Source: Halichondria panicea (taxonomy: Eukaryota; Porifera; Demospongiae; Suberitida; Halichondriidae). From it: 64,000 nt of DNA. Under the pieces are notes generated by a model. It was given only the letters and a program-made list of their open reading frames with translations, had not been told where the DNA came from and ran no database searches. Shown piece by piece: positions 1 through 61,600 of the stretch. Location of the stretch: assembly GCF_963675165.1 (NCBI RefSeq), contig NC_087392.1:4733442-4797441 (forward strand). Direction: 5' to 3'. Position 1 is the first letter of the stretch, and every line of letters starts with the position of its first letter. A program made the position numbers and the translations under genes.

Positions 1-155
1 TTTGGCCATTATACAGAGGTGGCCTTTGTTGAGTGCTTGTTTTGCACACAAACTGTTCATTTGGGACCTGGCCTTTATATCAAAGTTGGCCTTTCTTCAA
101 GGCTGGCCATTAGCATTTTTCAAACTATACTCTACTGACACACACACACACACAC

Positions 156-3100
156 CATAGGCCTCCTCCACCATGAGGGCAAAAGGGTTGACATTCTTCA
201 CAGCGTCCTGTTGTCCTATCTTGAGTATATTCTCCAGTCCCTCCAGAGTGATCATGACCATACGAGGATCTTGCACTGTCAGCAGATCACACAGCGGCTT
301 TACGCAACCAACGTCCACCAAGTATCTGCAAGTGAGTGGGCGGGAAAAGCCTGTCACGTACAAAGAGCTATTGAAATCATCCATTAGCTTTGAATTTGGA
401 CAATCTGAACACAAATTACAAACTCATAAAGATACATAATTATAATTATATCAGGAGTGTATGAAGTCCACTCCTGATTATATAGATAGATAGATAGATA
501 GATAGCTACCAAAACTACCTCACCAGAAAATGTACAAAACGTAAAGGTATGAATTAAAGCCCCACTCAAAATAGACTCAACAAGTATGCAAAAGTGTCAA
601 TTTTCCAAAGGCAGACAAGTAGCTAATAAGGTGTCAATTAACTGTATTCTGGGCTACACTACATGTATCTAGTGAGACTTGACAGCCTCAAGAATTCATC
701 CAGTGGTAGTGTGGGAAGACATGAATGACAACTTGGCATCATCTCAAGTTGCACTCTCAAATAATGGTCCAGGAGTTAATCTAATTACCACCTCTTCCTC
801 TGCTGAAGCCAAACACTACACACCTCAAAAGAACATAATAAGATTTCCATTGGGTGCATTTTGTGTTACAGACACAAAGAATTAGTTAGCCAAAAGGTTT
901 CTTTACAGTCATGTACATGTAGGAGCAACCTAATCTCCCAATAGCCTGTAAGCAAAATGTTCATTAAGTACAACTCAAAGCTTTGCTGCATACTGATTTA
1001 GACTTATCGATATATGTCACATGACTGGTCACCTGATCTGCTCGGCTGTTCCCCCCTGTGTGGCGTTGAGTACCGCCCACGCAGCCTCCTTCCTCGTCTT
1101 GTAGTCCACCCCCGAGCTGAGCACCTCGATTAGTAGCGGGAATATGTTGCAGTCAATCACAGTCTGTGTGTGTGGAGGGGGTAATACAAGTTCACAATAA
1201 GGTACTTAAAAACTAAAAGGTTTTAGAAGACTCCATTTTAAAGAATGTTGGACCCACTCATCAATAGCACACCTCCACATGTTTGGTACGTGCATACATG
1301 TACAAACCAGTACTAGACATCATGTAACTGAAAACTATCCAATAATGTACATTTGTACAGAATTTTGTCAATTTCTAACAATTAACACACACATTGTTCC
1401 AGTTAGCCCCTACCACCATCAGACTCCCACCTGTATCTGCACTCTGTTGCCGGCGGTGACGTTGGATAGAGCCCAACACGCCTCCTTCTTGACTCCCTCG
1501 AAGCGACTGCTCAGGAGATGTTGTAGTGCAGGCAGAACTGAGCAGTTGAGCAGCAGCTGTGGGAGTGGAGTGGGTGGGTGGGGTTATAATTATATGGACA
1601 GTCATTAGACTCCTTCACTGGCCTCCCCTGAAAAGAAGGCCTGCTACTGACTTTTTACGTATACGCAAAAATAATTATTGGATATTTTTTTACTATAAAA
1701 CTGGAATTTTTGCTACAAAAATATCAAATGAATAAACAGACAAAGAATACAAATTCATAATAATTATTAAAGCCACACACAGAGCTATATAACTGGTTAG
1801 CTACATGTAAAGACAGAGCTGTAGGTTTGTTGCAGCAGCTATTTTCTTTCTGATAAAGTCTAGTCAGCTTTCCCTCCACAATGTTGCAGGCTGTGAGTCT
1901 TTTGTTAGCATAGCATAGCTATCAGAATGCTATCAGATGGGCTAGAAACCTTCAATCGAACTTTCTATCTACTTTCTTCAATCCACTTCCATTTGTTGTG
2001 ACGTCATTGTTTTACTGAGCATACACGTTGTTATCTTGCGTTTGCCGGTATCTGGCTAATGGTTAGCGCAAGCGCACACAGTCGATACCAGACCCACTCT
2101 TAGAGGAAGTGCGGCCTGAGATTGAGGCCACATGTACATGTACATTACAATGTATGCACGAGAATACGTATTGCCACTGTATGACACTACAAAACAATTG
2201 GCTCTGGAAATGCCAGTCAAATTCTCGAGCGAGAGTGGCCAATTTCCATAAATGGCCTGAAAAGCACAATTAATTAAGACTGGTATTTGTACACTTGATT
2301 TAGTTACAGGATCAAGCTTTATAGCTCATACACAAATTGTGTACCTCACAAAATTCCAAAATGCCAGACATACTTTTACAAAAGACCTTGTTTGAAGCAC
2401 TGTATTGTGGTCACCCTCTATGCAATACACAGCCAGGTTTATGTGCCCCCAAGTAAGTCTCCATGGACCTGACCACCTCTTTATTACAGCCACTGTTGGT
2501 CTACCCAAGGGGTGACTTCTATAGGAACAAGCTTCACTGCTACTAACCGTACAGACCTCACAATTACAAGTGTCAATATACACACATATCACACAGATGT
2601 GCAGTGCAGTGCATCTATTAAGCACCTGTGTCTGACGGTCGTCCCCTGTGAGGATGTTACCCACGGCTCGTAGGGCAGGGGCTAACACTTTCTTATCAGG
2701 GAAGAACAACAGCTCCACCAGACGTCGACATAAACCACCATCCACTATACGCTGGATACGATCGTTAGGACCATCACCTGAGGAGGGAGGGAAGTACTGA
2801 AGCCTGTCTCTACTGTGGTCTCCCTATAAGCAGGCCACCCTCTATCAGAGGAGGTACGACATGCGTGCCTCGACCTAGCAATTAGCCTCCCACGCTCAAC
2901 GTTATTGCACAGGCTTAATTGCTCAATCGAGGCACGCACTCATCCTCTGGCCCTCTATAAAGCGAGGTAATGGTCTCCATAGCAATGTGTTTGGGCCTGT
3001 GTTAGTAGGCCACCTCTTATTACAGCCCACTGTGTCTGCCGGATGGTGACTCACAGTACAAGTATTGACTAGATCAAAGGCCACACAGCTGTCAGGAATG

Positions 3101-5463
3101 CTCTATATTAGATCACTACTTCCTGTTTCAAGCCATTAAAGAAAAGGTGGTAATTGCTCGAGGTTACTGCTCACCAATGAACGCGACAGACCAAGCGCAG
3201 TTACAGAGAACCTCCATATCCTCAGAGTGGAGTAGTTTAGCCAGCACTGGAATGGACAGTTGCACCTGTCATGTGTGTGGGTGGAGGGGATACAGGTTAC
3301 AGTATGCAATCAGAGGAGGTACGACATGCAGGAGCAATAATCTATTTATAGACTTGATTAGCTGACAAAGCATTATTAAACCTAGGCCTACACATGAACG
3401 GGATGAAACTACAGCTCTCAGCCTAATTGCTCCTGCATGTCATACCTCCTCTGGTATTATAATACAATACACAGCATCAAAATGGTCGTTCTTTTAATGG
3501 TATAATGCAAGCCTTAATTATACACTGTCTATTGTGGCCACCCTCTATAAATACAGCCAGGTTAATGACCTACACATGTATGATAAAAAAAACATGTGTT
3601 TGGACCTGTAGCAGGCCACCCGCCACTGTTGGACTACCCATGCAAGGGATGAAATCACCAACTCTAATCAATAGATCATCGGCCAGTTGCTGTTTCCCAT
3701 GGAAACTGACCACCCACTGCACTACAAAGCTAACCATACAATGAAAATGAAAACCACTATTCTGTAACACAGAACAACAACATTTTCAACTTACATGTAG
3801 GACAAAAACTGGCCTTTGGTAACAAAGCTACATGTACATGTACCGTATAGCGGGTAATTTTCGTCGATGCAAATTTACATATGAACCACCGAGTTTAATA
3901 TTTCATATTCTAAATATTCGTACAGCTCAGAATGGTGACGTAGGACTTGTTGCCAATAATATTTGGACTAATGCTCTAAATCTGAAAATTTGGACCATAT
4001 CCGCTTTTTGGACCATTTGAACCATAACCCGGTATTATGGTATGTACGGAGAGTCCACTTACTGCCCCTAGGTCCGGTGGTGGACTCTTCCCCCGACAAA
4101 GGTTAGAGAGAGTCCAAGTGGCGTTTCTCATCACAGCCACCTTGAGGGTAGGGTCTTGTAGTAATAACAGAAGAGGCTCCATTATACCAAATGATAGAGT
4201 GATGTCTCTGTACTCAGCACTGTCTCCAGCTATGTTGCCTAGTGCCCATACAGCCTGAGAGGGGGGGGGAGAGAGGTTTTGATGAGCCATAACTCAAGTT
4301 TGGTTGACCCAATTTCAATCATTTGGTGATTTCCTGAAAGCTAAGAACGAGTTCGTTCAAATGATAATATTATGCTCAGTTACATAATTTTTTGGATCGT
4401 GCCCAATAATTATTACACTTCCCCTCGTCTATATAGCCCATGGTTTTTGTCAAAACGGCCCTAAGCTCAATATACAGTGTAAGCTTTCAGAAAATCGAAG
4501 TTACGTTATGGCCATGAGGTCCTCCATGCATGCATAGTGCGTGCGTATAACTAAAACAGCTACATGCATGTACAGTTTTACTTTAGCCATAAAGTCATGA
4601 CCATAGACTATTACGACTTGTTTAACACACACACACATGCACACACGCACACACCTGTTCCCGTATGTAGTCGTGCTGTGAGAGGAGCAGCTGCACAAGA
4701 GGTGGGATGGCTCCGGCCTCAATGACCGTACGTGTTTGTAGGGTGGAGCCAGATGAAATGTTTGTGATGACCCAGGCAGCCTCAAACTGTAGGAGGGGGG
4801 AAGTGTGTTATGCACTGATCACCCTATAAGCAGAGCACCCTCTATAATACAGCCAGGTTATAATGGGTCTCAAAGTCTCCATAGCATGTGTTTGGACCTG
4901 TGCTAGCTGACTACCTCTTTATTATGCCTCGAGGCATAGGCCCATCATGGTAAAGCTGACTGTGTTAATACAGACTCTGTTGGTCTGACTAAGTATCAAC
5001 AAGTCTCACTGTAACACACACACACCTGTAGAAACGGACTGGTTGAACAGTGGAGAAACTCTACAAACTTTGGGAGACAGCCCAACCTAATGACCTCCTC
5101 AATCGGTGGATTGTCTGCAATAGAAACAGCAACAATACGAGGTAATGGACACAGTACACCATGGCAACTATGTAGCTAGCTACTAGTTTAGATAACAATA
5201 TCTATATATAAAAACGAAGCTTGCCCTAAAGCAAAGAGCAAATTTAGCAAAAATCGGCTGAAATTAAACAATTCTTCACTATTATAGCAATAGTAGAGGT
5301 ATAATACTGCACACACACAACCCCACACCCCTCCCCCCACACACACACACGTTCGTGACTCACTCAACTGTGAGAGTATGTGTCTAAACCTCCGCACTGC
5401 TGCCAGCTGCTCCTGAGGGTCCACACTGAACAGAGCCTTACAGAGCATGTCCAGGGGTGTGTC
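156..5463 (-). CDS. Importin subunit alpha, copy 1 (5'-truncated; 3' end outside window)
   Basis: Importin alpha carries cargo with a classical nuclear localisation signal to importin beta for nuclear import. Nine Armadillo-repeat exons are readable on the minus strand, about 5364-5463, 5026-5114, 4655-4786, 4063-4254, 3175-3265, 2626-2777, 1431-1556, 1033-1163 and 156-325. They encode the NLS-groove Trp/Asn pairs as [33 protein letters not shown] and [11 protein letters not shown], and the late-ARM peptide [14 protein letters not shown]. The sequence matches copy 2 at 31385-36681 almost base for base, and the exon differences I compared are synonymous. The two exons encoding the importin-beta-binding domain are absent: homology stops at 5714, inside the intron where they should follow. 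The final exon would lie left of position 1. Without the IBB this copy could not make a normal importin alpha. It may be a duplicated fragment, or the second haplotype misplaced by assembly. Confidence 0.88.
2846..2949. mobile_element. 104-bp MITE, CAGAGGAGG family (copy 1)
   Basis: Ends CAGAGGAGGTACGACATGCG and, inverted and degenerate, CGCACTCATCCTCTG. The flanks ACCCTCTAT and GCCCTCTAT make a 9-bp duplication with one mismatch. It is inserted in a family A repeat in an importin-alpha intron and present at the same site in copy 2 (34059-34162), so it predates the duplication. Confidence 0.85.
3311..3453. mobile_element. 143-bp MITE, CAGAGGAGG family
   Basis: Inverted ends CAGAGGAGGTACGACATGCA and TGCATGTCATACCTCCTCTG. 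It is also present in copy 2 (from 34533), where the right end has mutated to TTCTAG. The target duplication is not clear. Confidence 0.8.
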
Positions 5464-5716
5464 CTATAGCGGAGAATAGGACATGGTTCTTGATGTAATT
5501 GATTGATGAATACTGTACTAGTTGAGGTTGTTGTTATATGAATACTGCACTAATGGGTGTACGATAACCAGGTGAACATAGAATTAATTACACCGCAAAA
5601 AACATTCAATTCAAGTTACTAGGTTGGCCATGAAAGCATATTTAAACAAGCAAGAGAGAGAGAGAGAGCCATGTCACAATGCACATTGCATTCTACGTTA
5701 CAGTTCAGAGGTAGGG

Positions 5717-5889
5717 GGGAATTGAACTAATTAATTCTGACTAACCTCACAAGAGCCACCATTCTCACAAGGGCTGCTATCACACGGCTTTATTTCAGTT
5801 TGACAACCACTGGTGATGAAAAACAATTGCTAAAATTAACCCTAACCCGGCGTGCTCCTCTGCAAACTAATCAATGTAACCCTAACCCT
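5717..5889. other. Mosaic breakpoint: templated fragments and telomere-like units
   Basis: Between the last base shared by the two importin-alpha copies (5714) and the SENP gene lies a patchwork. Bases 5717-5811 are an exact reverse complement of 22644-22738 (an EGF exon of the Notch ligand plus some of its intron). Bases 5808-5837 are a direct copy of 26749-26778, overlapping the previous piece by CACT. Bases 5848-5879 are the reverse complement of 28762-28793 (second exon of transgelin gene 2). The joins carry AACCCTAACCC (5838-5848) and AACCCTAACCCT (5878-5889), which are CCCTAA telomere-type units. I could not trace 5890-5962. The EGF fragment is not part of any readable gene here. Confidence 0.85.
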
Positions 5890-5962
5890 GATTCATTTTG
5901 CAACCCTTTGTAATGCCTATTCAATATTGCGTTTAAAATATAGATACTGTGCTTAGTAAATT

Positions 5963-12898
<6,936 letters not shown>

Positions 12899-13245
12899 TG
12901 CGACCGTAGCCAGTCTACATCTTTAGTAGAGGGTGGTCATTGTACTTTGAGACTGTGTAGGTCAGCAAGACAGCTGAATCAGCAATAACTTTTGTCTAGG
13001 TTCAGAGGGCAGATACCACCAAAAGTTTCAGTCTCGGGTCCAGGCCGCGATTCCAGAGAAGTTTTTTTGCTGTTCTCCTAGATCCTGCTGTCCGTCCAAG
13101 GCCGGCTGAAGGGCCAAGGCTACACATCATGAGCTATCTAGTACTAAGGTGAGGAAGATGCAGACATATGTGTATTACTTGAATGAGCTACTGTACCCTG
13201 TAGTTTCAAGTGTACGTGGCTATAAAAGCATTGAGTCTAAAATAA
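12899..13245. promoter_or_regulatory. Shared upstream region between SENP and ULK4-like genes
   Basis: The two start codons face away from each other across 347 bp, so promoters for both genes must lie here or in upstream non-coding exons. I see no clear TATA box. Part of the stretch (about 13000-13060) looks like dispersed repeat DNA, with GTCTCGGGTCCAGGCCGCGA resembling the repeat near 43340-43375. Confidence 0.5.
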
Positions 13246-15188
13246 ATGGAGAACTACCTTCTGTGTGGTGAGCTCCAGTCCCAAGAGGAGGGTGTCTCTG
13301 CCTGGCCCACCCCGGTCAGCCTCGTGTACAAGGGACGGAGGAAGGGAAGTGTGCAGTTTGTGGGGATAGGGAAATACGACAAGCAAGACAAGAAATACAT
13401 CGAGAATGGAGTGAGTGCACACGCCCCCTTTTGTTTGCCTGTATAACTACTCGCTCTATCTATAGAATGTTTATATAGTGGTTTTTATAGTGGTTTTTTT
13501 GTAACATTTTGCCTGATTTTGATAGTTTTATCAGGCTTGATCGTAAGATTAAAAAAACCCCCGACTATACACCGACTTGGGGGAACTCCCTTATGCACGC
13601 ATTTAATAAAAAATCTCATGTTGTTGCCTATACATAATTATACATTGAGGGAAAACCCCGTTACGAGCTCTCCTTGTAGCCCTACATCAAGGGGAACCCC
13701 CCATTACGAGCAATTAGTCCTGATGTTCCCACTACACGTACAGGTACAGCTGATGCATTCTTTGGATCACGAGAACGTGCTCAAGTTCAGTGAATGGTAC
13801 GAGACTCCACAGCACATCTGGGTCATCACAGAGCTGGCCATCGGAGGCACCCTCTCTCACATACTGCACCAAGATGGCTGCATTCCCAGCCCTAATATCC
13901 ACGACTTTGTCCGGGACATTGCAGCTGGACTGACCTACATTCACTCCAGGGGGGTGCTCTATTGTGACCTGCAGCCCTCCAAGGTAACTTATTCCCATAG
14001 CACACAAATTAGCATGTACCTCATATAATAATCGCCTCAGCATTATAAAGTCGGTATTTACAGTAGAGCCCCTCTTAACGGCCACTCGTGAAAAAAAGCG
14101 AAGTGTGATACAAAGGCCAGGTCCCAAATGAACAGTTTGTGTACACAACCCCTCAACAAAGGCCACCTGTACATGTGTAATGATTATTATGGGTTCCCTA
14201 AAGGTGTCCACTATAAAGAGGCTGCACTGTATGTCCATTATTGATTAAGTACAAGCTATGCTACTTTTATTTTTCTATTTTAACTGTTGGGGCACTTCAT
14301 TATTGTGTATTTCACCAACAGATTGTACTGGATGGCCGTCAGCTACTGAAACTCAGCGACTTCACGCTAGCCCAGACAATGGCTGACTGCCATAACCATT
14401 ACAACCTCACGTCACTTGTAAACACATTACTGACGCCCTCGGGAAAAGACCACCCTCTAAAATACGCCCCCTCACCATTCTACGCTGCTCCTGAGTTGTT
14501 TGTTGATGGTGGACAGTTTTCAACAGCCAGTGACCTGTGGTCTCTAGGCTGCATCGTGTATGAGCTGAGTCTAGGTAATGCGAGTCTGGGTAATGCGAGT
14601 CTGGGTAATGCGAGTCTAGGTAATGCGAGTCTAGGTAATGCGAGTCTAGGTAATGCGAGTCTAGGTAATGCGAGTCTATAATTATACTAGTTTACTGCAA
14701 CACGCAGTCACCTGGTAAATGATTTTATGGTTACATTATTCAGCTTTAGAGCAAATTCAGATCACGTTGAATTCAGACAAATTTAATCATACAACAGTTT
14801 CAGATATCAACAGTGGCTGTAATAAAGAGGTGGTCAAACACATGCTATGGAGACTTTGGGACGCATACATTAACCTGGCTGTATTATAGAGGGTGGCCTA
14901 GCTGATTATGGGTGACAGGTTCTGTGTCACTGTGTAGTAGCAGGTAGTAGTAGTTGGATCGATGGATCATACTATTCTGGTAATGTTGTTGTCCCAAATT
15001 TATTGTGTTTTTTATATCTCACTACAGGTTGCAAACCATTTGATAGCAATGACCCTGACCTGCTACTCCAGTCTATCTCGTGCATACAACCAAACGCTGT
15101 GGTACAGTCTCCAGAAACAGCTCAACTATTATCAAACCTCCTCACAGGGGAACCTAGTCATCGGACTACACCGCCTCAGTATACATGA
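13246..15188 (+). CDS. ULK4-like pseudokinase (kinase domain only)
   Basis: ULK4 is a serine/threonine pseudokinase of the Unc-51 family linked to cilia and microtubules. Exons are about 13246-13410, 13744-13983, 14322-14574 and 15029-15188. The start MENYLLCGELQ and VYKGRRKGSVQFVGI match the ULK4 N-lobe pattern. HENVLKFSEWYETPQHIWVI, the catalytic-loop position LYCDLQPSK (YCD for HRD) and LSDFTLAQ (DFT for DFG) follow, then YAAPELF and SDLWSLGCIVYELSLG. The standard Ala-x-Lys lysine is not obvious. The lost HRD and DFG motifs agree with a pseudokinase. After CKPFDSNDPDLL the frame stops at 15188, and the long C-terminal helical-repeat region of ULK4 is not found before the next gene at 15389. 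The gene is therefore truncated, or joined to exons I did not recognise. Confidence 0.75.
14566..14680 (+). repeat. 15-bp minisatellite repeating the ULK4 5' splice site
   Basis: The unit AGTCTAGGTAATGCG is repeated about seven times at exact 15-bp spacing. The exon ends at 14574 as AGTCTAG/GTAATG. GTAATG recurs at 14575, 14590, 14605, 14620, 14635, 14650 and 14665. The frame stays open through the array, reading NASLG repeats, so any donor used would keep the frame of the downstream exon at 15029 (CKPFDS). Confidence 0.93.
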
Positions 15189-15388
15189 CTCTTCTATGTG
15201 TTCATTGCTTCATCGCTTTCAATGTGCGTATGAATCTTCCTTAAGAGCATTTTATCACTTACTAAATTTGTCTATTTTGATCCACAGTTTGTTACATGGT
15301 ATTTAGTTATGAACATGCTAAACTTGATAAAATGATAATTGACATATTGGGGTATCCCCTTATAAACCCACACAGTTGGTAAATTAAT

Positions 15389-16947
15389 ATGACCACCATT
15401 GTAGTACTGATGTCCCTAGTAGCTATTTGCTACACTCAGGAACTTGTTGTTGAAGACAGACCTCTCAACATTCTCCTGCTTAATGGCTTGTTTGCTGGCC
15501 ACCTGTTCCCACTGGTCAGCCTGGGTGAAGAGCTAGTCAGTAGGGGCCACAATGTCTCCCTCTGCTCCACTGTCATGGAGGGATCAAAATTGCTCCCAAA
15601 TCTACCAGAAAGTGTGGGAATAAAGTTCCTAAATGCTGGTTTGGATGTTATTACACTGGAAGAGTTTGAAGCACAAACCAGGAACCAAAAGGACGGACCT
15701 GGAGGTGCTGCAGTTGCTGACTTTGCTACAGTGCTCATCAATCGACTGTAAAGATTTTAAACAAATTGGAAACTTACGGAATTGAACGTTTTGATATGAT
15801 CGTATGCGATTTCTCTGTTATACATATCGGACTACACTATGCCATCTTGGGCAGGAAAGTCATTGCGTTCAGCTCCATGCTTCCCCCCTACCCTGCTATA
15901 GAATCCCCCTGGCCTCTTCCATTCACACTTAGCGGAGGCCAATCAGACGATTTGAGCTTCTTAGAACGTCTACAAAACTCGATACTAGCACCTTTGCTCA
16001 TCCCAGCATGGAACTATCTATTCTGGATCTTCTGCAAAGGCGACGAGAGATTGGAAACAACTCTAAATGGTATTAACTTTATGCGATATCCTGGGATTAA
16101 TATTCCCCATCTGATAACATCTGTAATTGGGTTCGATACACCTGCACTTCAAACTCCCCTCAGGCATTACGTAGGACCTATGGTGAAGAAAAGAACGGAC
16201 AAATTAGCAGAGGATCTGGAGGAATGGCTTAGTAACAAGAGAGAGAGATCTGTTATCTATATCAGCATGGGTACCACTGGCTATGTATCCGGGGATGTTG
16301 CTAGGACAATCATCGAAAGTGTGATGGCAACGAAATTTGATGCAGTTTGGGCCCTGAGAGACAACAATAGAGGGTCTATAGAAGGTGTTGAAATTGATGA
16401 CAATCGAATATTTATATCGGGATGGGTGCCACAGCAGACGATACTCGCGCATGCATCGATCCGATTGTGTATTCTCCATTGTGGACTGAATAGTGTGCAG
16501 GAGAGCCTATACAATGGCCTGCCTGTTGTGTGCCTGCCTCATGCCTTCGATCATTTCGCGACTGGTGGGACCATTCGTAATATTCGTGTGGGAATATCCA
16601 TGTACAGTTTTTTCGATAGCATTCTTGGGCATACAGACGTATCAATAAAGGATTTAACAAATGCAATCACGACAGTTTCAAGTGATGGGTATGTAGCAAA
16701 TGCTAGGAGGGTTTCACTCGTGTACAAGTTTGCTGGAGGAGCAGAGACAGCTGCAGGCCTGGTGGAGTACTATACTGATGTTGGGTACGATCACCTCATA
16801 CCAGCCTTTGCAAGATATCAGTGGAGCTGGATACAGTATCGTAATCTCGATGTGTGTGCTGTTCTGTTTAGTATTTTAGCTGTGTTTATGTTTCTGTCGT
16901 ACAAGTGCTTGTATAGTTGTGTCTGTGTGAAAGTATGTAGAAAGTGA
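15389..16947 (+). CDS. UDP-glycosyltransferase (UGT family) with an internal frameshift
   Basis: Membrane-bound UGTs of the ER transfer sugars from UDP-sugars to lipophilic acceptors. The gene is intronless here. The N-terminal part (15389-15751) has a signal peptide (MTTIVVLMSLVAICYTQ) and the acceptor-side motif GHLFPLVSLGEELVSRGHNV. The second part runs in the -1 frame from about 15739 to 16947. It contains ISMGTTGYVSG, the UGT signature WVPQQTILAHASIRLCILHC with GLNSVQESLYNGLPVV, a C-terminal membrane span (VLFSILAVFMFLSYKCL) and a basic tail. The usual HGGxNS is HCGLNS. The two parts are complete relative to the family, but need a one-base correction near 15740. The intervening stretch is too short for an intron. 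It is either a recent pseudogene or a sequencing error. Confidence 0.85.
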
Positions 16948-17137
16948 TTTGTTTGTTGTGATTTCCTGGGGGGGGGGGGGGGGGTTCTGTCACAAGTCAT
17001 AATTGTGAGTGAGCAGCCCCACCTCCCTCTACATGTAGCTCTGGGAATTCCAGTATAAATGCACACCGACACAGTTTCCAAGCAAAGATATCTGTTGTGA
17101 GAGCAGCCAGGCGTGCATAACAACAGTGCGCACAGCA
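16948..17137. promoter_or_regulatory. Upstream region of the Notch-ligand gene
   Basis: A 16-base G run (about 16969-16984) follows the UGT stop. Just upstream of the ligand start is a TATA-like box TATAAAT (17054-17060), preceded by the palindrome GGGAATTCC (17043-17051), which fits a Rel/NF-kB half-site pair. The TATA box is about 80 bp before the start codon at 17138. Function is inferred from sequence only. Confidence 0.35.
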
Positions 17138-26563
<9,426 letters not shown>

Positions 26564-26850
26564 TGTGTGCAATTTTATACCATTCGTATTCATGCAGCTT
26601 CTTTCATCGTTTTGTTATTTTCATGACCCTTTGCCATACGCAGGTAATAAACATGTTGTTATTATGATGATCCTTTGCCAGACAATTATTGCTATAGGTA
26701 ATGATCGATAAATTAATAAACACAATATGGACATACGTCCACTCACTGCACTGGTGATGAAAAACAATTGCTAAAATTTTTAATTGCAAAACAAGTTGCA
26801 AAACAGTCTATAATTAATGATTTAGTTCGATCCTCTCTATAGCAGTCACT
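26564..26850. other. Tail-to-tail spacer, Notch ligand and transgelin 1
   Basis: A 287-bp spacer between converging genes. It holds AATAAA-type signals and the stretch 26749-26778 that is also found at the 5.8-kb breakpoint. I see no gene in it. Confidence 0.6.
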
Positions 26851-27995
<1,145 letters not shown>

Positions 27996-28267
27996 TGTGT
28001 GAGAGCTATTAAAAGTCGGTGTCTAGCTTTATAAAACTGGAACTCACTTGCCCAATGCACGCAATTTTTACAAGGATAATTATTATAGCACTTCCGCTTT
28101 TGTGCCACAAATGCGCCATGCGCAGGAAGAGTACATTTTTGACTGTTAGTATTTTTACATTGTTAATATCACACATGAATTGAAATGTGCTAGGTATCAA
28201 AAACTGTTATATCAGCTCAAAAAAAATTTAATGATTGGACGATTGTTCATACTCCAGATAGTGGGGG

Positions 28268-29030
<763 letters not shown>

Positions 29031-30885
29031 TATGCTTGTGGGTAAGTTGAAGTAGTAGTTGCAGTGTAAAGCACAGAGAAGTTAGAGAAATGTAAGTGCT
29101 TGCAGAGCCCTGTTGCTACCTTATATATTAATTTGCTGCCCTTGAGTCACGCATGCGCAATTACTCCAACACAATATTTTCTTCCATATAAGGTCACATA
29201 CCACAGCATCCATAGGAACAAAGCATTATTTCTAATGTCTGGTATTTGGATGCCAGCCAGTTGTCCTACACACTGGATATACTTGTACCTTACTGCAACT
29301 GCCCATAAAAACATCAGACAGACTCACAAGCACTATTTCTGTTGTATGCAATGTATTACAACAAACCTCAATAGTTATGCTGGTGTACAGGCGTAATACC
29401 CGGTAATCATTTTCTGATAATGGAGAAGTGTCACTAGCAGTCTTAACTATACATCATTATGGTTGTATCTAGCCTCAACTTTGTACATGACATAGACCAG
29501 CTAGAAAGCAGCTGTCATTTAGGAGGTCCATCTTGGTCTCTCCCTCTGACCACATTCCAACCACTCAATTGTCCAAACCACAAAGTACACAACACTGTGG
29601 TTGTGATGTAATTAGCTGACATTCCAGTGATTCCACCACTCTGCAGGGTAAACATCCAATAAAGGAGATCATTTTAAGAATTCCATGAATGAATGAAAAC
29701 AGCTATATATACGTTGACTCATCAGGATGCACTCCTGACGTCATAAACAACATTATTTAGTTATAGCTAGAGGTCTTCAACCAAAATTAGTAAAAGCTTG
29801 TTGATAAACAGATGACATACAGGTTTTAATAAGTAGCTTAACATTTTTGTGTCGTCACGAAATACCGGCCAGAGTGCCAACAAATTAATATCATCTGCCC
29901 ATATGTCATTATAATTATCCGGTGCTGCATTATTTTATGGTTACCCTGTATGTGTACACAGGAGTATAATTACTCACATTACAGCGTCTGGTAGCCAACG
30001 TTACGTTGTGGCTGAGTGGGAGGTTATAACACAGTATACACAGCTGCTGCAAATCATGCCATCAACACTACACATTGTCATATACACAGGAGAGAGGAAT
30101 CTTTCCTACAGGAAGTTGAATTGTATACCCTTGTTCTATACCACACATTACATGCACTTCTAATTATAGGCAACCAATTGTAAACGTCTCCTAGGATCCA
30201 TAAATCCCCCATTAGCCTATTATCGATAGATATATGTGACAGGGCCTAGCAAAACAACCCTTATGGAGCAAACTAATTAATTGTATTTTATTGCTTAATT
30301 AAATAAAACAGTGCTTAAGCTTCAAATTGATTACAATATCACTCACTTTGCACCTTCCTACCCCAAAATATTTTCGGGTGAAAGGGGGACAGTATTGACC
30401 TACCGTTTTGAGAAACTAATGTTCCAAGTTCTATCCGCATGCAAGAACAGCATGAAAAAATTCAATGGCTGCCTTGTAACGGCTATACAAAAAATTTTCG
30501 GATAAAAAAATTTTTTTTTAAGTTAGAGGAGATGTTGAAGTTACTTCTTATGAAAGAAAACCAAAATCCTAAAATAGCTCTAATATTTTACTTTGTAGTG
30601 TACTGAACATTATTAGTTTGCTCCATAAGGGTTGTTTTCCTAGGCCCTGTCACATATAGCACACATCGAAGCATAAATGGTCATGTACAGCTAGGTACAA
30701 TTAAAACACACAACAGCTAGTTTCGTGCAAGCTGACAACATACATTATCCCATTTAGGTTGATCACACTTCAATCATTAGCAGAGTCAACAAATTCATTT
30801 TAAATTGACAAAGTAATGTAACAAAATAGACAAATAACTGCATACATACATACATACATCATGAAAAGTGATTACAGATTGAGTT
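29031..30885. other. Intergenic stretch with one inverted-repeat element
   Basis: I see no gene in these 1.85 kb. The right half holds an inverted-repeat element at 30231-30658, annotated separately. The remainder is AT-rich single-copy sequence as far as this window shows. The start of transgelin 2 is at 29030, so its promoter lies at the left end. Confidence 0.6.
30231..30658. mobile_element. Inverted-repeat element, about 428 bp
   Basis: The left end TATATGTGACAGGGCCTAGC and following bases (to AGCAAACTAAT) are matched, inverted, at 30612-30658 with one mismatch over about 46 bp. There is no coding capacity. A TA duplication is possible because the ends are flanked by TA, but this is not distinctive. 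Confidence 0.8.
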
Positions 30886-33800
30886 TTAGAATTGGAAACC
30901 GCCCTCAGGCAATTGTGTGTTGGTATTAAACATATATTGTTCTCCGTCCTTGGCAGGGTTTGGGGCCAGCTGTAAGTCCACTTGGTCCTGGTCATCACCG
31001 AAATACTTGTCAATAATTCTCAGTGCAATCTTGTACACTTGTTCACTGCTGTGCTGCTGCAAGTGCTCGATCTTGTCCAGGCCTGTGTGTGTGGGGTGAC
31101 ACTGTTGTACATGTACTTTGACAATGCAGATCATCTTACAAAGTGCACCCACCCATGAAATACAACCCCACAATACATCTGACTGTACAGTAAACCACAC
31201 ATTGCATTATACAGCTTTGTGGCAAGTTTTGGCCATTACACAGAGGTGGCCTTTGTTGAGTGCTTGTTTTGCACACAAACTGTTCATTTGGGACCTGGCC
31301 TTTATATCAAAGTTGGCCTTTCTTCAAGGCTGGCCATTAGCATGTTTCAAACTATACTCTACTGACACACACACACACACACACCATAGGCCTCCTCCAC
31401 CATGAGGGCAAAAGGGTTGACATTCTTCACAGCGTCCTGTTGTCCTATCTTGAGTATATTCTCCAGTCCCTCCAGAGTGATCATGACCATACGAGGATCT
31501 TGCACTGTCAGCAGATCACACAGCGGCTTTACGCAACCAACGTCCACCAAGTATCTGCAAGTGAGTGGGCGGGAAAAGCCTGTCACGTACAAAGAGCTAT
31601 TGAAATCATCCATTAGCTTTGAATTTGGACAATCTGAACACAAATTACAAACTCATAAAGATACATATAATTATATCAGGAGTGTATGAAGTCCACTCCT
31701 GATTATATAGATAGATAGATAGATAGATACCAAAACTACCTCACCAGAAAATGTACAAAACGTAAAGGTATGAATTAAAGCCCCACTCAAAATAGACTCA
31801 ACAAGTATGCAAAAGTGTCAATTTTCCAAAGGCAGACAAGTAGCTAATAAGGTGTCAATTAACTGTATTCTGGGCTACACTACATGTATCTAGTGAGACT
31901 TGACAGCCTCAAGAATTCATCCAGTGGTAGTGTGGGAAGACATGAATGACAACTTGGCATCATCTCAAGTTGCACTCTCAAATAATGGTCCAGGAGTTAA
32001 TCTAATTACCACCTCTTCCTCTGCTGAAGCCAAACACTACACACCTCAAAAGAACATAATAAGATTTCCATTGGGTTCATTTTGTGTTACAGACACAAAG
32101 AATTAGTTAGCCAAAAGGTTTCTTTACAGTCATGTACATGTAGGAGCAACCTAATCTCCCAATAGCCTGTAAGCAAAATGTTCATTAAGTACAACTCAAA
32201 GCTTTGCTACATACTGATTTAGACTTATCGATATATGTCACATGACTGGTCACCTGATCTGCTCGGCTGTTCCCCCCTGTGTGGCGTTGAGTACCGCCCA
32301 CGCAGCCTCCTTCCTCGTCTTGTAGTCCACCCCCGAGCTGAGCACCTCGATTAGTAGCGGGAATATGTTGCAGTCAATCACAGTCTGTGTGTGTGGAGGG
32401 GGTAGTACAAGTTCACAATAAGGTACTTAAAAACTAAAAGGTTTTAGAAGACTCCATTTTAAAGAATGTTGGACCCACTCATCAATAGCACACCTCCACA
32501 TGTTTGGTACGTGCATACATGTACAAACCAGTACTAGACATACATGTAACTGAAAACTATCCAATAATGTACATTTGTACAGAATTTTGTTAATTTCTAA
32601 CAATTAACACACACATTGTTCCAGTTAGCCCCTACCACCATCAGACTCCCACCTGTATCTGCACTCTGTTGCCGGCGGTGACGTTGGATAGAGCCCAACA
32701 CGCCTCCTTCTTGACTCCTTCGAAGCGACTGCTCAGGAGATGTTGTAGTGCAGGCAGAACTGAGCAGTTGAGCAGCAGCTGTGGGAGTGGAGTGGGTGGG
32801 TGGGGTTATAATTATATGGACAGTCATTAGACTCCTTCACTGGCCTCCCCTGAAAAGAAGGCCTGCTACTGACTTTTTACGTATACGCAAAAATAATTAT
32901 TGGATATTTTTTTACTGTAAAACTGGAATTTTTGCTACAAAAATATCGAATGAATAAACAGACAAAGAATACAAATTCATAATAATTATTAAAGCCACAC
33001 ACAGAGCTATATAACTGGTTAGCTACATGTAAAGACAGAGCTGTAGGTTTGTTGCAGCAGCTATTTTCTTTCTGATAAAGTCTAGTCAGCTTTCCCTCCA
33101 CAATGTTTCAGGCTGTGAGTCTTTTGTTAGCATAGCATAGCTATCAGAATGCTATCAGATGAGCTAGAAACCTTCAATCGAACTTTCTATCTACTTTCTT
33201 CAATCCACTTCCATTTGTTGTGACGTCATTGTTTTACTGAGCATACACGTTGTTATCCTGCATTTGCCGGTATCTGGCTAATGGTTAGCGCAAGCGCAAG
33301 CAGTCGATACCAGACCCACTCTTAGAGGAAGTGCGGCCTGAGATCAAGGCCACATGTACATGTACATTACAATGTATGCACGAGAATACGTATTGCCACT
33401 GTATGACACTACAAAAGATTTGGCTCTGGAAATGCCAGTCAAATTCTCGAGTGAGAGTGGCCAATTTCCATAAATGGCCTGAAAAGCACAATTAATTAAG
33501 ACTGGTATTTGTACACTTGATTTAGTTACAGGATCAAGCTTTATAGCTCATACACAAATTGTGTACCTCACAAAATTCCAAAATGCCAGACATACTTTTA
33601 CAAAAGACCTTGTTTGAAGCACTGTATTGTGGTCACCCTCTATGCAATACACAGCCAGGTTTATGTGCCCCCAAGTCTCCATGGACCTGACCACCTCTTT
33701 ATTACAGCCACTGTTGGTCTACCCAAGGCTTGAAGGGTGACCTCTATAGGAACAAGCTACTGTACAGACCTCACAATTACAAGCGTCAATATACACACAT

Positions 33801-36800
33801 ATCACACAGATGTGCAGTGCAGTGCATCTATTAAGCACCTGTGTCTGACGGTCGTCCCCTGTGAGGATGTTACCCACGGCTCGTAGGGCAGGGGCTAACA
33901 CTTTCTTATCAGGGAAGAACAACAGCTCCACCAGACGTCGACATAAACCACCATCCACTATACGCTGGATACGATCGTTAGGACCATCACCTGAGGAGGG
34001 AGGGAAGTACTGAAGCCTGTCTCTACTGTGGTCTCCCTATAAGCAGGCCACCCTCTATCAGAGGAGGTACGACATGCGTGCCTCGACCTAGCAATTAGCC
34101 TCCCACGCTCAACGTTATTGCACAGGCTTAATTGCTAAATCGAGGCACACACTCATCCTCTGGCCCTCTATAAAGCGAGGTAATGGTCTCCATAGCAATG
34201 TGTTTGGGCCTGTGTTAGTAGGCCACCTCTTATTACAGCCCACTGTGTCTGCCGGATGGTGACTCACAGTACAAGTATTGACTATAATTATAGATCAAAG
34301 GCCACACAGCTGCCAGGAATGCTCTATATTAGATCACTACTTCCTGTTTCAAGCCATTAAAAAAAAAGGTGGTAATTGCTCGAGGTTACTGCTCACCAAT
34401 GAACGCGACAGACCAAGCGCAGTTACAGAGAACCTCCATATCCTCAGAGTGGAGTAGTTTAGCCAGCACTGGAATGGACAGTTGCACCTGTCATGTGTGT
34501 GGGTGGAGGGGATACAGGTTACAGTATGCAATCAGAGGAGGTACGACATGCAGGAGCAATAATCTATTTATAGACTTGATTAGCTGACAAAGCATTATTA
34601 AACCTAGGCCTGCACATGAACGGGATGAAACTACAGCTCTCAGCCTAATTGCTCCTGCATGTCATACCTCTTCTAGTATTATAATACAATACACAGCATC
34701 AAAATGGTCGTTCTTTTAATGGTATAATGCAAGCCTTAATTATACACTGTCTATTGTGGCCACCCTCTATAAATACAGCCAGGTTAATGACCTACACATG
34801 TATGATAAAAAACATGTGTTTGGACCTGTCAGGCCACCCGCCACTGTTGGACTACCCATGCAAGGGATGAAATCACCAACTCTAATCAATAGATCATCGG
34901 CCAGTTGCTGTTTCCCATGGAAACTGACCACCCACTGCACTACAAAGCTAACCATACAATGAAAGTGAAAACCACTATTCTGTAACACAGAACAACAACA
35001 TTTTCAACTTACATGTAGGACAAAAACTGGCCTTTGGTAACAAAGCTACATGTACATGTACCGTATAGCGGGTAATTTTCGTTGATGCAAATTTACATAT
35101 GAACCACCGAGTTTAATATTTCCTATTCTAAATATTCGTACAGCTCAGAATGGTGACGTAGGACTTGTTGCGAATAATATTTGGACTAATGCTCTAAATC
35201 TGAAAATTTGGACCATATCCGCTTTTTGGACCATTTGAACCATAACCCGGTATTATGGTATGTACGGAGAGTCCACTTACTGCCCCTAGGTCCGGTGGTG
35301 GGCTCTTCCCCCGACAAAGGTTAGAGAGAGTCCAAGTGGCGTTTCTCATCACAGCCACCTTGAGGGTAGGGTCTTGTAGTAATAACAGAAGAGGCTCCAT
35401 TATACCAAATGATAGAGTGATGTCTCTGTACTCAGCACTGTCTCCAGCTATGTTGCCTAGTGCCCATACAGCCTGAGAGGGGGGGGGAGAGAGGTTTTGA
35501 TGAGCCATAACTCAAGTTTGGTTGACCCAATTTCAATCATTTGGTGATTTCCTGAAAGCTAAGAACGAGTTCGTTCAAATGATAATATTATGCTCAGTTA
35601 CATAATTTTTTGGATCGTGCCCAATAATTATTACACTTCCCCTCGTCTATATAGCCCATGGTTTTTGTCAAAACGGCCCTAAGCTCAATATACAGTGTAA
35701 GCTTTCAGAAAATCGAAGTTACGTTATGGCCATGAGGTCCTCCATGCATGCATAGTGCGTGCGTATAACTAAAACAGCTACATGCATGTACAGTTTTACT
35801 TTAGCCATAAAGTCATGACCATAGACTATTACGACTTGTTTAACACACACACACATGCACACACGCACACACCTGTTCCCGTATGTAGTCGTGCTGTGAG
35901 AGGAGCAGCTGCACAAGAGGTGGGATGGCTCCGGCCTCAATGACCGTACGTGTTTGTAGGGTGGAGCCAGATGAAATGTTTGTGATGACCCAGGCAGCCT
36001 CAAACTGTAGGAGGGGGGAAGTGTGTTATGCACTGATCACCCTATAAGCAGAGCACCCTCTATAATACAGCCAGGTTATAATGGGTCTCAAAGTCTCCAT
36101 AGCATGTGTTTGGACCTGTGCTAGCTGACTACCTCTTTATTATGCCTCGAGGCATAGGCCCATCATGGTAAAGCTGACTGTGTTAATACAGACTCTGTTG
36201 GTCTGACTAAGTATCAACAAGTCTCACTGTAACACACACACACCTGTAGAAACGGACTGGTTGAACAGTGGAGAAACTCTACAAACTTTGGGAGACAGCC
36301 CAACCTAATGACCTCCTCAATCGGTGGATTGTCTGCAATAGAAACAGCAACAATACGAGGTAATGGACACAGTACACCATGGCAACTATGTAGCTAGCTA
36401 CTAGTTTAGATAACAATATCTATATATAAAAACGAAGCTTGCCCTAAAGCAAAGAGCAAATTTAGCAAAAATCGGCTGAAATTAAACAATTCTTCACTAT
36501 TATAGCAATAGTAGAGGTATAATACTGCACACACACAACCCCACACCCCTCCCCCCACACACACACACGTTCGTGACTCACTCAACTGTGAGAGTATGTG
36601 TCTAAACCTCCGCACTGCTGCCAGCTGCTCCTGAGGGTCCACACTGAACAGAGCCTTACAGAGCATGTCCAGGGGTGTGTCCTATAGCGGAGAATAGGAC
36701 ATGGTTCTTGATGTAATTGATTGATGAATACTGTACTAGTTGAGGTTGTTGTTATATGAATACTGCACTAATGGGTGTACGATAACCAGGTGAACATAGA

Positions 36801-37343
36801 ATTAATTACACCGCAAAAAACATTCAATTCAAGTTACTAGGTTGGCCATGAAAGCATATTTAAACAAGCAAGAGAGAGAGAGAGAGCCATGTCACAATGC
36901 ACATTGCATTCTACGTTACAGTTCAGAGGTAGATACATTCCATCAGTGGTTATAACTAACCAGTAACTATACTCAAGTAGGAGGACATTTAGTGTGATCA
37001 GAAATAAGAACTGGAGTGAGCCAAAACGTATAAAACATAGTGTTGGTATGGTCACGGAGTCAGCCCCTCACCTCAGGGAAAGAGAATGCAGCTGCTCCAC
37101 CAGCCTCCACAATGTCTGGCACTGCATCCAGATTCCTCCGCTTGGATAACTGCAAAAATACAAAATAAAATAGCACTCAAATACATAATAATCATGACGA
37201 CGTACTTGTTCATCTCTCTTCGATTTTCTCAATTGAATTCCTTCTTCCTCTCTTTTTTTTCTTGACTCCTCCAAAGTGAACCCTTTGGTTTTGTAGGACT
37301 TGAGTCTATTCTCTCCACTTCCTGAACCAGCACTGGTAGCCAT
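30886..37343 (-). CDS. Importin subunit alpha, copy 2 (complete)
   Basis: An adaptor linking NLS cargo to importin beta. Twelve exons on the minus strand. Exon 1 (37206-37343) and exon 2 (about 37074-37150) encode the importin-beta-binding domain: [20 protein letters not shown], then LRKSKRDEQ and [13 protein letters not shown]. Armadillo exons lie at about 36582-36681, 36244-36332, 35873-36004, 35281-35472, 34397-34487, 33839-33990, 32653-32778, 32255-32385 and 31385-31554. The last exon (30886-31083) encodes [19 protein letters not shown] and the end LPEGGFQF. Ten ARM repeats with the usual Trp-Asn ladder are present, and the full protein of about 520 residues is family-typical. It is head-to-head with RMI1, 283 bp between starts. 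Several introns begin directly with (GT)n. Confidence 0.95.
31229..36932. repeat. Copy 2 of the 5.7-kb importin-alpha duplication
   Basis: It matches 1-5714 with small offsets (31229 at the left, 31222 in the middle, 31218 at the right) caused by indels in introns. Substitutions are scattered over the left two thirds. From about 4090 to 5714 against 35308 to 36932 I saw almost none. Homology ends at CAGTTCAGAGGTAG in both copies. Confidence 0.93.
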
Positions 37344-58600: not shown

Positions 58601-61600
58601 AAAGTGAACAAACAACTGCGCCAGGTAAACATAAAATTATTCTTGGTTTCAGGTAAATGTGATATGACTTTAGGTAAAGTTGGAAAAAGAAAAAGACACT
58701 ATCCTCGAACAAATTGGAGGCCGATTGATGGCTACCATAGCGAGAGTGAGGCTGACTCAATACCATATCGGTCTAGCTGTCGAGATAAGCCTAGCAATCA
58801 AAATAATGCCCCTGGAGATGAACAAGATACTGTATCAGATAAACAGACTAGTAACTGTGAAGTAACTATGACAAATGGATTAAGACGGACTGATGGCTAT
58901 TCTAGTGACGGTGAGGCGCCTAAGCATGGCTCACAGGAATTTGCAGCACAAAATGTGCCTGTGGATACACTGGAGAAAGAACTGGCAGGGTATGACTGGT
59001 ACAGTGCTTTTATGCACCTTTCGGTATCACATATTGTTGCATTTTGAGTGGGCAGATCAAAGGAAACACTGTGCCAATATCTGCCATATGGCACAGGTCA
59101 AGCCTTGAACTGTGCCACTGTCTAGATACTGGCATAGTATGGCTGAAGTTACCTAAAGCCCACGGCTTGACCTGTGCCACTGTCTAGATACTGGCATAGT
59201 ATGGCTGAAGTTACCTAAAGCCCCCAGCAACCTGAAACGGTCCCTTTTATAGTATAACACTGTTAAACAGATTCATGCAGTGGTAGGCAGAAAACGTTTT
59301 TCATGCGTCTGGAGCATTCCACAGCCACCACAAGTAGTTGAAACTATTTGTCCTATAAAAGGAGTGATGTGTACCAGGAAAGGAATGCACAAGGAATGCA
59401 ACAAATCAGTTGTTACACAGCTCACTCGTGCGCACATGGGATATATTGGCTCAGTAGTGCCTTTGCCCTCGAGCCCTCGGGCCTAAGTCACTACTGAGCC
59501 AATATATCCCATGTGGCACTCGTGCATGTGTCACAACTATAACTTATACCACAAATAGTAAACATGCAAACCACAGGCTGCTACAGGCAAACAAGGAGGA
59601 ATTTGTGGTGTTGTCTTGTTGATGAGCCCGTGTTCAATAGAAACTTTAAAAGTTGAATGTTAACCACATTCAAAACTCATGCACGATATAATAATACATG
59701 TAGTTGTCTACTTGATATACAGTGCAACAACCAAAGAGAGTAGATTTTTTTTTTGGTACACATTTTTTACATTTTATGGCATATCTTCTAAAGTAAAAGT
59801 GATATGATCTATTTGAGTGCAGGTACTGAAAGTTCAACTATTGGCGCTTCCATTGGACCACCACCTGTTACATCACATGACATCATCAGTATAAAATGGC
59901 TGTCTGAAGATGTGTACTTTCGAAAATATGTTAGGAATAGAAGTAGCTTATTTGTTTGAGTTAAGATCTGAAATTTGTTGTGCATGTACCTGAGTATATT
60001 GCTCATCTTTTGAGCTTCAACGGAAGTCTGGGCTACTAGTAAGTTCTGAGAAATACTGCATTTTGTTGTTTTTTGGTGGCAAATATGTTAGGAATACAAC
60101 TTTCGATTATATATTAGTTAAGGTCTGATTTTTGAGCAGCATGTACTACAATAGTGTACTTTTCATCTGTACTAACTTACAGGAGTTAGGCTAGCCTCTT
60201 CTTTGCTAGAGCGGCCCATCTTGTCAAAAACAGTGCTTTTTATGACTTTTGGGGCGATTTGGCTACGTAGTAAGCTCAATTACCACGCCCCTATGACACA
60301 GAATGACCAACACCAACTGTGTATTTGCAGGTAGACATCACATGACCTTTGGATGTAGCAAATAACAACAAGATGATTTGTGATGTCACAAATCAATGAA
60401 TATCATTGCATACGTCAGCAAAAGTAGCAAAACGGAGCAAAATCACCATTTTTGACAAGAAGGGCCGCTCTAGCAAAGATGAGACTGGTCTAGCTCCTGT
60501 AAGTTAGTACAGATGAATTCTATGCTATTGTAGTACATGCTCCTCAAAAATCAGACCTTAACTAGCATAAAATCGAAAGTTGTATTCCTAACATATTTGC
60601 CACCAAAAAACAACAAAATTCAGTATTTCTCAGAACTTACTAGCAGCCCAGACTTCCGTTGAAGCTCAAAAGATGAGCAATATAGTCAGGTACATACACA
60701 ATAAATTTCAGATCTTAACTCAAACAAATAAGCTACTTCTATTCCTAACATATTTTCGGAGGTACACATCTTCAGACAGCCATTTCATAGTGATGATGTC
60801 ATATGATGTAACAGGTGGTGGTCCAATGGAAGCGCCAATAATTGAACTTTCAGTACCTGCACTCAAATAAATCATATCACTTTTACTTCAGAAGATATGC
60901 CACAAAATGTGAAAAAAAAAAAAAAAAAAAAAAATCTACTCTCTTTGGTTGTTGCACTGTATCTCTTGTGGTGTTTTACACGGTTCTCAAAACTCACGGT
61001 TAATTTCGAAAGTAAAGTGCTGAGTCAGCATTGAGCCCCACCCACCCTGTACTCCCAACTTCAATTTCATTGCATGCGTTTATTAAGGATTACCATTGCT
61101 CACAGTGTTTACAGCAAACCGAAGGGTTACAATCCCGAAGGATCCGAAGGATCGCTTGATGTTGTGTTCCATGTGATCATCGCCAAACCAGTCTGGGAGT
61201 GGGACGACGAATCTAAAGTATTCCTTCGTTTTGGAAGTAAACACCTTGGGGGTTGGAAACGAAACATTGGGAACTTTGTCAAAAAGTTAGTTAGTGAGCT
61301 ATATAATGCATAATGATAAGTGTTTATATAATTATATAGGGACATAGATAAAGATTATTGTGAGCTGTCTTGCCGACTTACCATCAATTTAAACGCCCTT
61401 AAAAAGTTTATACCATATAAGTATGTTGTATTTACTCCTAAAACGAAAGGAAAAGAACATTTGTACTTTGAATTTCTTGGAAAGAGTTATTCTGGACAAC
61501 ACACTAACAGAGTCTTGTACGGTTTAAAGGGTAAGTAATTAATAATGCATATATATTTACCTCGAGGCGTATATAGCTACACGAGGGATATGGTAAAGCT

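Follow-up and report, generated by a model that had tools for sequence, protein, structure and literature searches.

A tandem-duplication joint in the sponge Halichondria panicea that combines three locally templated fragments with two short telomere-like runs

What kind of event leaves copied fragments and telomere-like units side by side at a single breakpoint? The question is raised by a 64,000-nucleotide stretch of the genome of the sponge Halichondria panicea (the window; C16:4733442-4797441, in a 131-Mb assembly of 39 contigs), for which an initial annotation had described a duplication edge that was stitched from local templates and cut two genes. We read the surrounding 150 kb (C16:4650001-4800000) and aligned it to itself; this comparison of the assembled sequence revealed three tandem copies of a ~31-kb unit at C16:4672212-4770373, 1.06 Mb from the right end of the contig. 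The edge, the stitched templates and the cutting of genes were all borne out, but the structure is a tandem triplication, and the joint is internal to it and present twice. In the window, 5715-5888 forms the boundary at which one copy of the ~31-kb unit meets the next; the layout is as follows.

C16:4672212-4708419, copy 1, with joint 1 coming next
C16:4708594-4739155, copy 2, with joint 2 (the joint in the window) coming next
C16:4739330-4770373, copy 3
Window 1..5714, right end of copy 2, pairing with 31228-36932 (blastn, 98.57% over 5733 columns), homology stopping at 5714 and 36932
Window 5889..36932, copy 3, complete, with its left edge at 5889/5890 and its right edge at 36932

The point where homology ends had been correctly placed at 5714, since the alignment of 1-5714 to 31228-36932 stops there. 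On the far side, whole-genome alignment had been suggested as a way to place 5890-5962, and it does so: from 5889 onward the window matches the left edge of the unit at C16:4672212 (98% over 112 nt; 97.7% over 1,869 columns). Sequence past 36932 is unlike the joint, as are the outer flanks of the locus, which adjoin 4672212 on the left and 4770373 on the right and are also free of any telomeric run. A 401-bp query across the joint gave 13 genome matches in a search that skips very common words, all of them at C16 4.672-4.771 Mb, namely two full joints (100%), one intact right edge, one left edge (112 nt, 98%) and three donor sequences in three instances each. The joint itself therefore occurs twice, at 100% identity over 401 nt, inside a 4,113-nt stretch that is identical at both places (window 4645-8757). 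A phage search using the joint sequence gave no match. Farther right in the window lies an inverted repeat (59714-60965) whose 538-nt arms are 91% complementary and 176 nt apart.

To resolve the joint, window 5601-6100 was compared with the whole window by blastn, and the joint was then compared base by base with each template. Positions 5601-5714 are identical by blastn to 36819-36932 (100%), and the sequence continues through these features:

5715..5716, GG, either untemplated or carrying one mismatch to the G-run of donor 1, from the template comparison
5717..5811, minus strand, piece 1 (95 nt), an inverted copy of 22644-22738, 100%
5808..5837, plus strand, piece 2 (30 nt), a direct copy of 26749-26778, 100%
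5837..5848, telomere-like run TAACCCTAACCC (12 nt), partly shared with its neighbours
5848..5879, minus strand, piece 3 (32 nt), an inverted copy of 28762-28793, 100%
5877..5889, telomere-like run TAACCCTAACCCT (13 nt), partly shared with its neighbours

On the plus strand the order is thus right edge, donor 1, donor 2, filler, donor 3, filler, left edge. The initial annotation had identified the same elements; its 95-bp inverted piece is indeed an exact copy of 22644-22738 but begins at 5717 rather than 5715, and the 30-bp direct piece, the 32-bp inverted piece and the telomere-like units (runs of 12 and 13 nt) all reappear in our comparison at the positions listed, as does the overlap of pieces 1 and 2 by the 4 nt CACT (5808-5811). 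Within the 150 kb no template was found for 5838-5847 or for 5880-5888. Piece 1, read on the minus strand, seems by eye to hold the end of a donor exon together with GAG/GTTAGT. About 0-4 bases are shared at the switches (the 4 nt of CACT, ~1-3 nt at the telomeric borders and 0-1 nt at the right-edge entry), and such overlaps are too short to tell from chance. Exact matches of 30 nt and 32 nt inside 64 kb are unexpected by chance, which is a poor explanation both for the donor pieces and for the telomeric pair.

The donors, as they stand in copy 3, are these:

22644..22738, plus strand, donor 1, other instances at C16:4694531 and 4725256
26749..26778, plus strand, donor 2, other instances at C16:4698629 and 4729361
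28762..28793, plus strand, donor 3, other instances at C16:4700638 and 4731374

Within the 150 kb each donor has one instance per copy and lies inside the unit only. The fragments had been open to the suspicion of being dispersed repeats; a dispersed repeat or mobile element as their source was rejected, with 13/13 genome matches falling in this locus (very common words being skipped). The donors had also been placed 17-23 kb away, a distance that depends on which copy served as template, as they are present inside the unit in all three copies and those in the copy preceding the joint are ~8-14 kb from it. Their use in increasing order is correct for the plus strand, at a chance of 1 in 6 for three donors (by hand). 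Together the donors span 6.2 kb of the 31-kb unit, a clustering that is not significant (~0.1, by hand).

The joint of a copy-number gain here contains sequence copied from elsewhere, with three exact templates, a pattern expected of a FoSTeS/MMBIR joint. We consider it probable that one template-switching event of the FoSTeS/MMBIR type, with telomeric filler, produced a tandem duplication, and that a later crossover produced the three copies. A broken or stalled replication end would have left one edge of the ~31-kb segment and copied short stretches at three places in the segment (inverted, direct, inverted); short telomeric filler would have been added or copied, twice; and synthesis would then have resumed from the opposite edge, so that the segment stood twice in tandem. 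A later crossover between these two copies, out of register, would have raised the number to three and left the same joint at two places. That this was a single event, that its mechanism was replicative, and where the telomeric filler came from are all matters that we infer. Template switching is preferred because the templates lie kilobases away, in mixed orientation, are up to 95 nt long and are tied to copy-number gain. The 0-1 nt of microhomology at several switches adds little, and we count this against it.

Some of the same features recall polymerase-theta end joining, in which two broken ends would have been joined through repeated annealing and copying, with no processive break-induced replication. 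Such joining typically leaves brief overlaps and more than one small templated insert, and pieces 2 and 3, of 30 and 32 nt, are in keeping with it. Typical theta fillers are nevertheless shorter, and come from nearer, than a 95-nt template kilobases distant, whereas the templates here are kilobases off and one piece measures 95 nt; we therefore regard this route as unlikely. On the sequence, MMBIR, polymerase theta and telomerase are all candidate machineries, and polymerase theta and MMBIR have themselves been linked at telomeres in one report (PMC13065848).

The motif at the joint is the telomere repeat of this genome, with TTAGGG/CCCTAA at contig ends. Contig C1 starts with ~420 bases of CCCTAA repeats (C1:1-420) and has the complementary repeat near its right end. 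C16 ends in TTAGGG repeats, which fill its final 200 bases, but no telomeric array was seen in its initial 200. Within the 150 kb, telomeric words of at least 10 nt occur in the joints only, as do AACCCTAACC and its complement. Telomeric words of 12 nt are expected at 3.3e-7 per base in a third-order Markov simulation of the region, a rough figure based on one hit in 3 Mb. Neither the left edge in copy 1 nor the right edge in copy 3 has a telomeric run, so that the run is absent from the empty site as represented by these two edges.

Across the whole genome, isolated AACCCTAACCCT occurred 35 times vs. 16 for the reversed control, with 10 of the 35 in one cluster on C11. Being only about twice as frequent as the control, isolated 12-nt words make a single 12-mer weak evidence, which we also count against the template-switching reading; the strong part is the pair within one joint. 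We searched the whole genome for two AACCCTAACCC words 11-41 nt apart, and obtained 44 matches vs. none for the reversed control, two of the 44 being the joints. Fetched sequence revealed minisatellites or long CCCTAA-rich arrays at places on C2 (L101), C7 (L102) and C10 (L105), and degenerate telomere-like stretches with only partly repetitive spacers at two places on C8 (L103 and L104). Searches with the L103 and L104 stretches gave 17 and 74 further matches, respectively, which align chiefly over the telomere-like part and are mostly in telomere arrays, and no unique template was found for either spacer. A single degenerate array, present in two copies, accounts for two of the paired matches on C1; C1:9726945 and the clusters on C3, C8, C10 and C15 were judged by matched letters alone. 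We rejected the notion that paired telomeric runs are a common motif in this genome, the other 42 matches being minisatellites or telomere-like arrays or stretches, in part by matched letters only. Thus the two joints are the only paired matches for which a unique non-telomeric spacer template was found, the other 42 having been judged partly from fetched sequence and partly from matched letters.

Two of the telomere-like sites deserve separate description. At C8:6124819-6125313 (L104), a spacer of ~40 nt, in part non-repetitive, stands between a short telomeric run and a degenerate telomeric stretch, with no template found for the spacer; this is possibly another repair scar. At C1:12751912-12752331 (L091), an interstitial site, two short telomeric runs stand head to head, TTAGGG meeting CCTAACCC.

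Exact 20-nt telomeric words were found at 10 interstitial places on C1, the one contig surveyed in this way, in runs of ~20-30 nt; three of the places are copies of one repeat, leaving 8 independent. These places are in favor of a stepwise origin, in which a plain tandem duplication came first and the fragments and telomeric runs were inserted independently at its joint by later break repair. Telomeric insertion at breaks has indeed been documented in rodents and primates (PMC2246262), and a plain duplication with later insertions at the joint would leave an identical sequence, a point that we count against the template-switching reading. Several events would however be needed at one point, each with a template from the one unit; moreover, no intermediate was seen, and the two joints are identical. 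We accordingly judge a stepwise origin to be quite improbable.

The presence of one joint at two places can be followed in the history of the copies. Their three-way alignment yielded 731 informative ungapped sites, setting apart copy 1 (678 sites), copy 3 (51) or copy 2 (2). With a single switch point placed between C16:4729768 and 4730180, copy 2 is like copy 3 over about its first 21 kb and like copy 1 over about its last 9 kb; because this one switch point leaves only 7 misfits among the 729 sites that set copy 1 or copy 3 apart, we take copy 2 to be a recombinant of the outer copies. Unequal crossover (NAHR) can expand a tandem duplication, and the pattern of the middle copy would be that left after such a crossover between two-copy chromosomes. 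As in known cases, the internal copy combines the left part of one outer copy with the right part of the other, and the joints are identical; in this respect there is nothing unusual. The recombinant copy 2, taken with the position of the joints in a 4,113-nt identical stretch, suggests that the joint was made once, in the duplication, and was then copied. The interval of the putative crossover (equivalent in copy 3 to window 27156-27568) has donor 2 on one side and donor 3 on the other, which is probably a coincidence.

Divergence between copies 1 and 3 is mosaic (in 500-bp steps across window 14000-26000 it varies between 0.4% and 28%), and for this reason dating by copy divergence was dropped. 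Window 14000-22000 differs from C16:4680-4691 kb by 4-28% in parts and by 0.4-2% nearby, and copy 1 may hold a different haplotype, or may have undergone conversion, at the equivalent of this interval. The unevenness points to a history beyond the two proposed steps, e.g., gene conversion or haplotype mixing, and it too counts against the template-switching reading. It also resembles haplotype variation, as might be seen if the assembly were in error, either because two haplotypes had been assembled as separate copies or because of a chimeric join; a haplotype misjoin could likewise give three copies with a recombinant middle one. Haplotype duplication does not, however, yield a joint that connects one copy's right edge with another's left edge by way of three inverted or direct fragments, and copies 1 and 3 differ at hundreds of sites, with a ~4.4-kb insertion in copy 1 alone, such that we consider assembly error very improbable. 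This insertion (C16:4683985-4688435) carries an integrase-like reading frame and another resembling an Ulp1/PHD protein (domain names by eye), and looks like a retroelement.

The event may also have fused two genes. The left edge of the unit cuts a SENP6/7-like gene on the minus strand, whose hand-joined exon peptides match SENP7 (8.7e-25) and the Pfam family Peptidase_C48 (2.3e-14). The right edge cuts an importin-alpha gene, also on the minus strand; among the proteins matched by its hand-joined exon peptides, designed armadillo proteins come first, followed by native importin-alpha chains (~4e-61), and its IBB domain scored 1.5e-19. The exons that face each other across the joint are:

5966..6088, minus strand, last SENP6/7-like exon in the unit, peptide match RAHWFVAF...KKKP, donor CCG/GTAAAT, phase 0 (splice site by eye)
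5368..5463, minus strand, importin-alpha exon 3, peptide match DTPLDML...HILSQ, acceptor CTATAG/GACACA, phase 0 (splice site by eye)

Four SENP and four importin exon pieces are present in all three copies with identical peptides; the next SENP exon, by contrast, has one instance in the 150 kb, outside the unit, as do the importin IBB exon and exon 2, and these two importin exons are missing at the joint in the window. The cutting of two genes was thus upheld, with a likely consequence that goes further: the SENP exon and importin exon 3 share strand and phase, and an in-frame SENP-importin fusion is therefore predicted at both joints. Each predicted product, if expressed, would be a chimera spliced at putative sites across the merged intron and lacking the IBB domain. 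An intact SENP-like gene would extend leftward out of copy 1, and an intact importin gene rightward out of copy 3. Further genes in the unit are kinase-like, UDP-glucuronosyltransferase-like and Notch-ligand-like; the last has MNNL and DSL domains, which are specific to animals and mark the genome as that of an animal. The UDP-glucuronosyltransferase-like frame (window 15383-16947) is open for 523 and 521 codons in copies 1 and 2, respectively, and is split into 122 + 408 codons in copy 3.

The source of the telomeric filler bears on direction. Both fillers read GGGTTAGGGTTA on the minus strand and agree in phase, as would be expected if telomerase had extended one 3' end after another, and one base is in register with the motif at each primer end if the minus strand was extended (a chance of 1 in 4 each). 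In such a scheme, a 3' end that starts at the unit's left edge and moves leftward would gain about two TTAGGG units, anneal to donor 3 and copy it, gain two more telomeric units, then copy donors 2 and 1 and re-enter at the right edge. A leftward fork would extend the minus strand, with the fillers in the sense in which telomerase adds them; a rightward fork must synthesize the C-rich strand of the filler, and hence needs a telomere or telomeric RNA as template. The second filler could alternatively have been copied from the first, with which it has a 12-nt word in common 40 bases apart. That telomerase alternated with DNA polymerase within one repair event is a suggestion that we hold tentatively and consider rather doubtful.

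Each step of the proposed template-switching origin has precedents. In humans, germline insertions assembled from as many as five templates are described (PMC8421209), and at human 22q13 there are reports of telomere healing with 1-5 bases of microhomology and, separate from the healing, of a FoSTeS-type inverted insertion of 40-47 bp (PMC3136441). Like these human FoSTeS/MMBIR joints, as far as those accounts describe them, the sponge joint consists of short templated pieces in either orientation, with overlaps short enough to be due to chance; unlike them, it also contains telomeric filler at two points and is present in duplicate (through crossover, in our reading). Telomeric repeats have been inserted at breaks in rodents and primates (PMC2246262) and in other vertebrates (PMC8537989), and such short interstitial telomeric sequences at double-strand breaks resemble ours in being short filler of the telomere motif; the sponge fillers differ in being 12-13 nt only, in occurring twice, and in alternating with locally templated DNA at a tandem-duplication joint. 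The telomeric patches at induced I-SceI breaks, as reviewed in PMC5110952, similarly have telomere repeats as filler at a repaired break, but these are experimental and, as presented there, are without other templates at a duplication joint. Of further sources, PMC13207348 concerns ring chromosomes and PMC6410037 reviews interstitial telomeric sequences. In the literature searched, from which most subscription journals were absent, we found no tandem duplication whose joint alternates between telomeric filler and locally copied pieces, which is a weak indication that no such case has been described.

The locus offers a base-resolved record of an animal germline duplication, with templates, their order, filler, later crossover and predicted fusion legible at one place, and points to the possibility that a single event may involve both template switching and telomeric filler. 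It also makes a prediction of polarity, in that involvement of telomerase requires extension of the minus strand. Were the alternation of telomerase with DNA polymerase to prove true, telomerase could work within a template-switching duplication, and not only cap or patch breaks.
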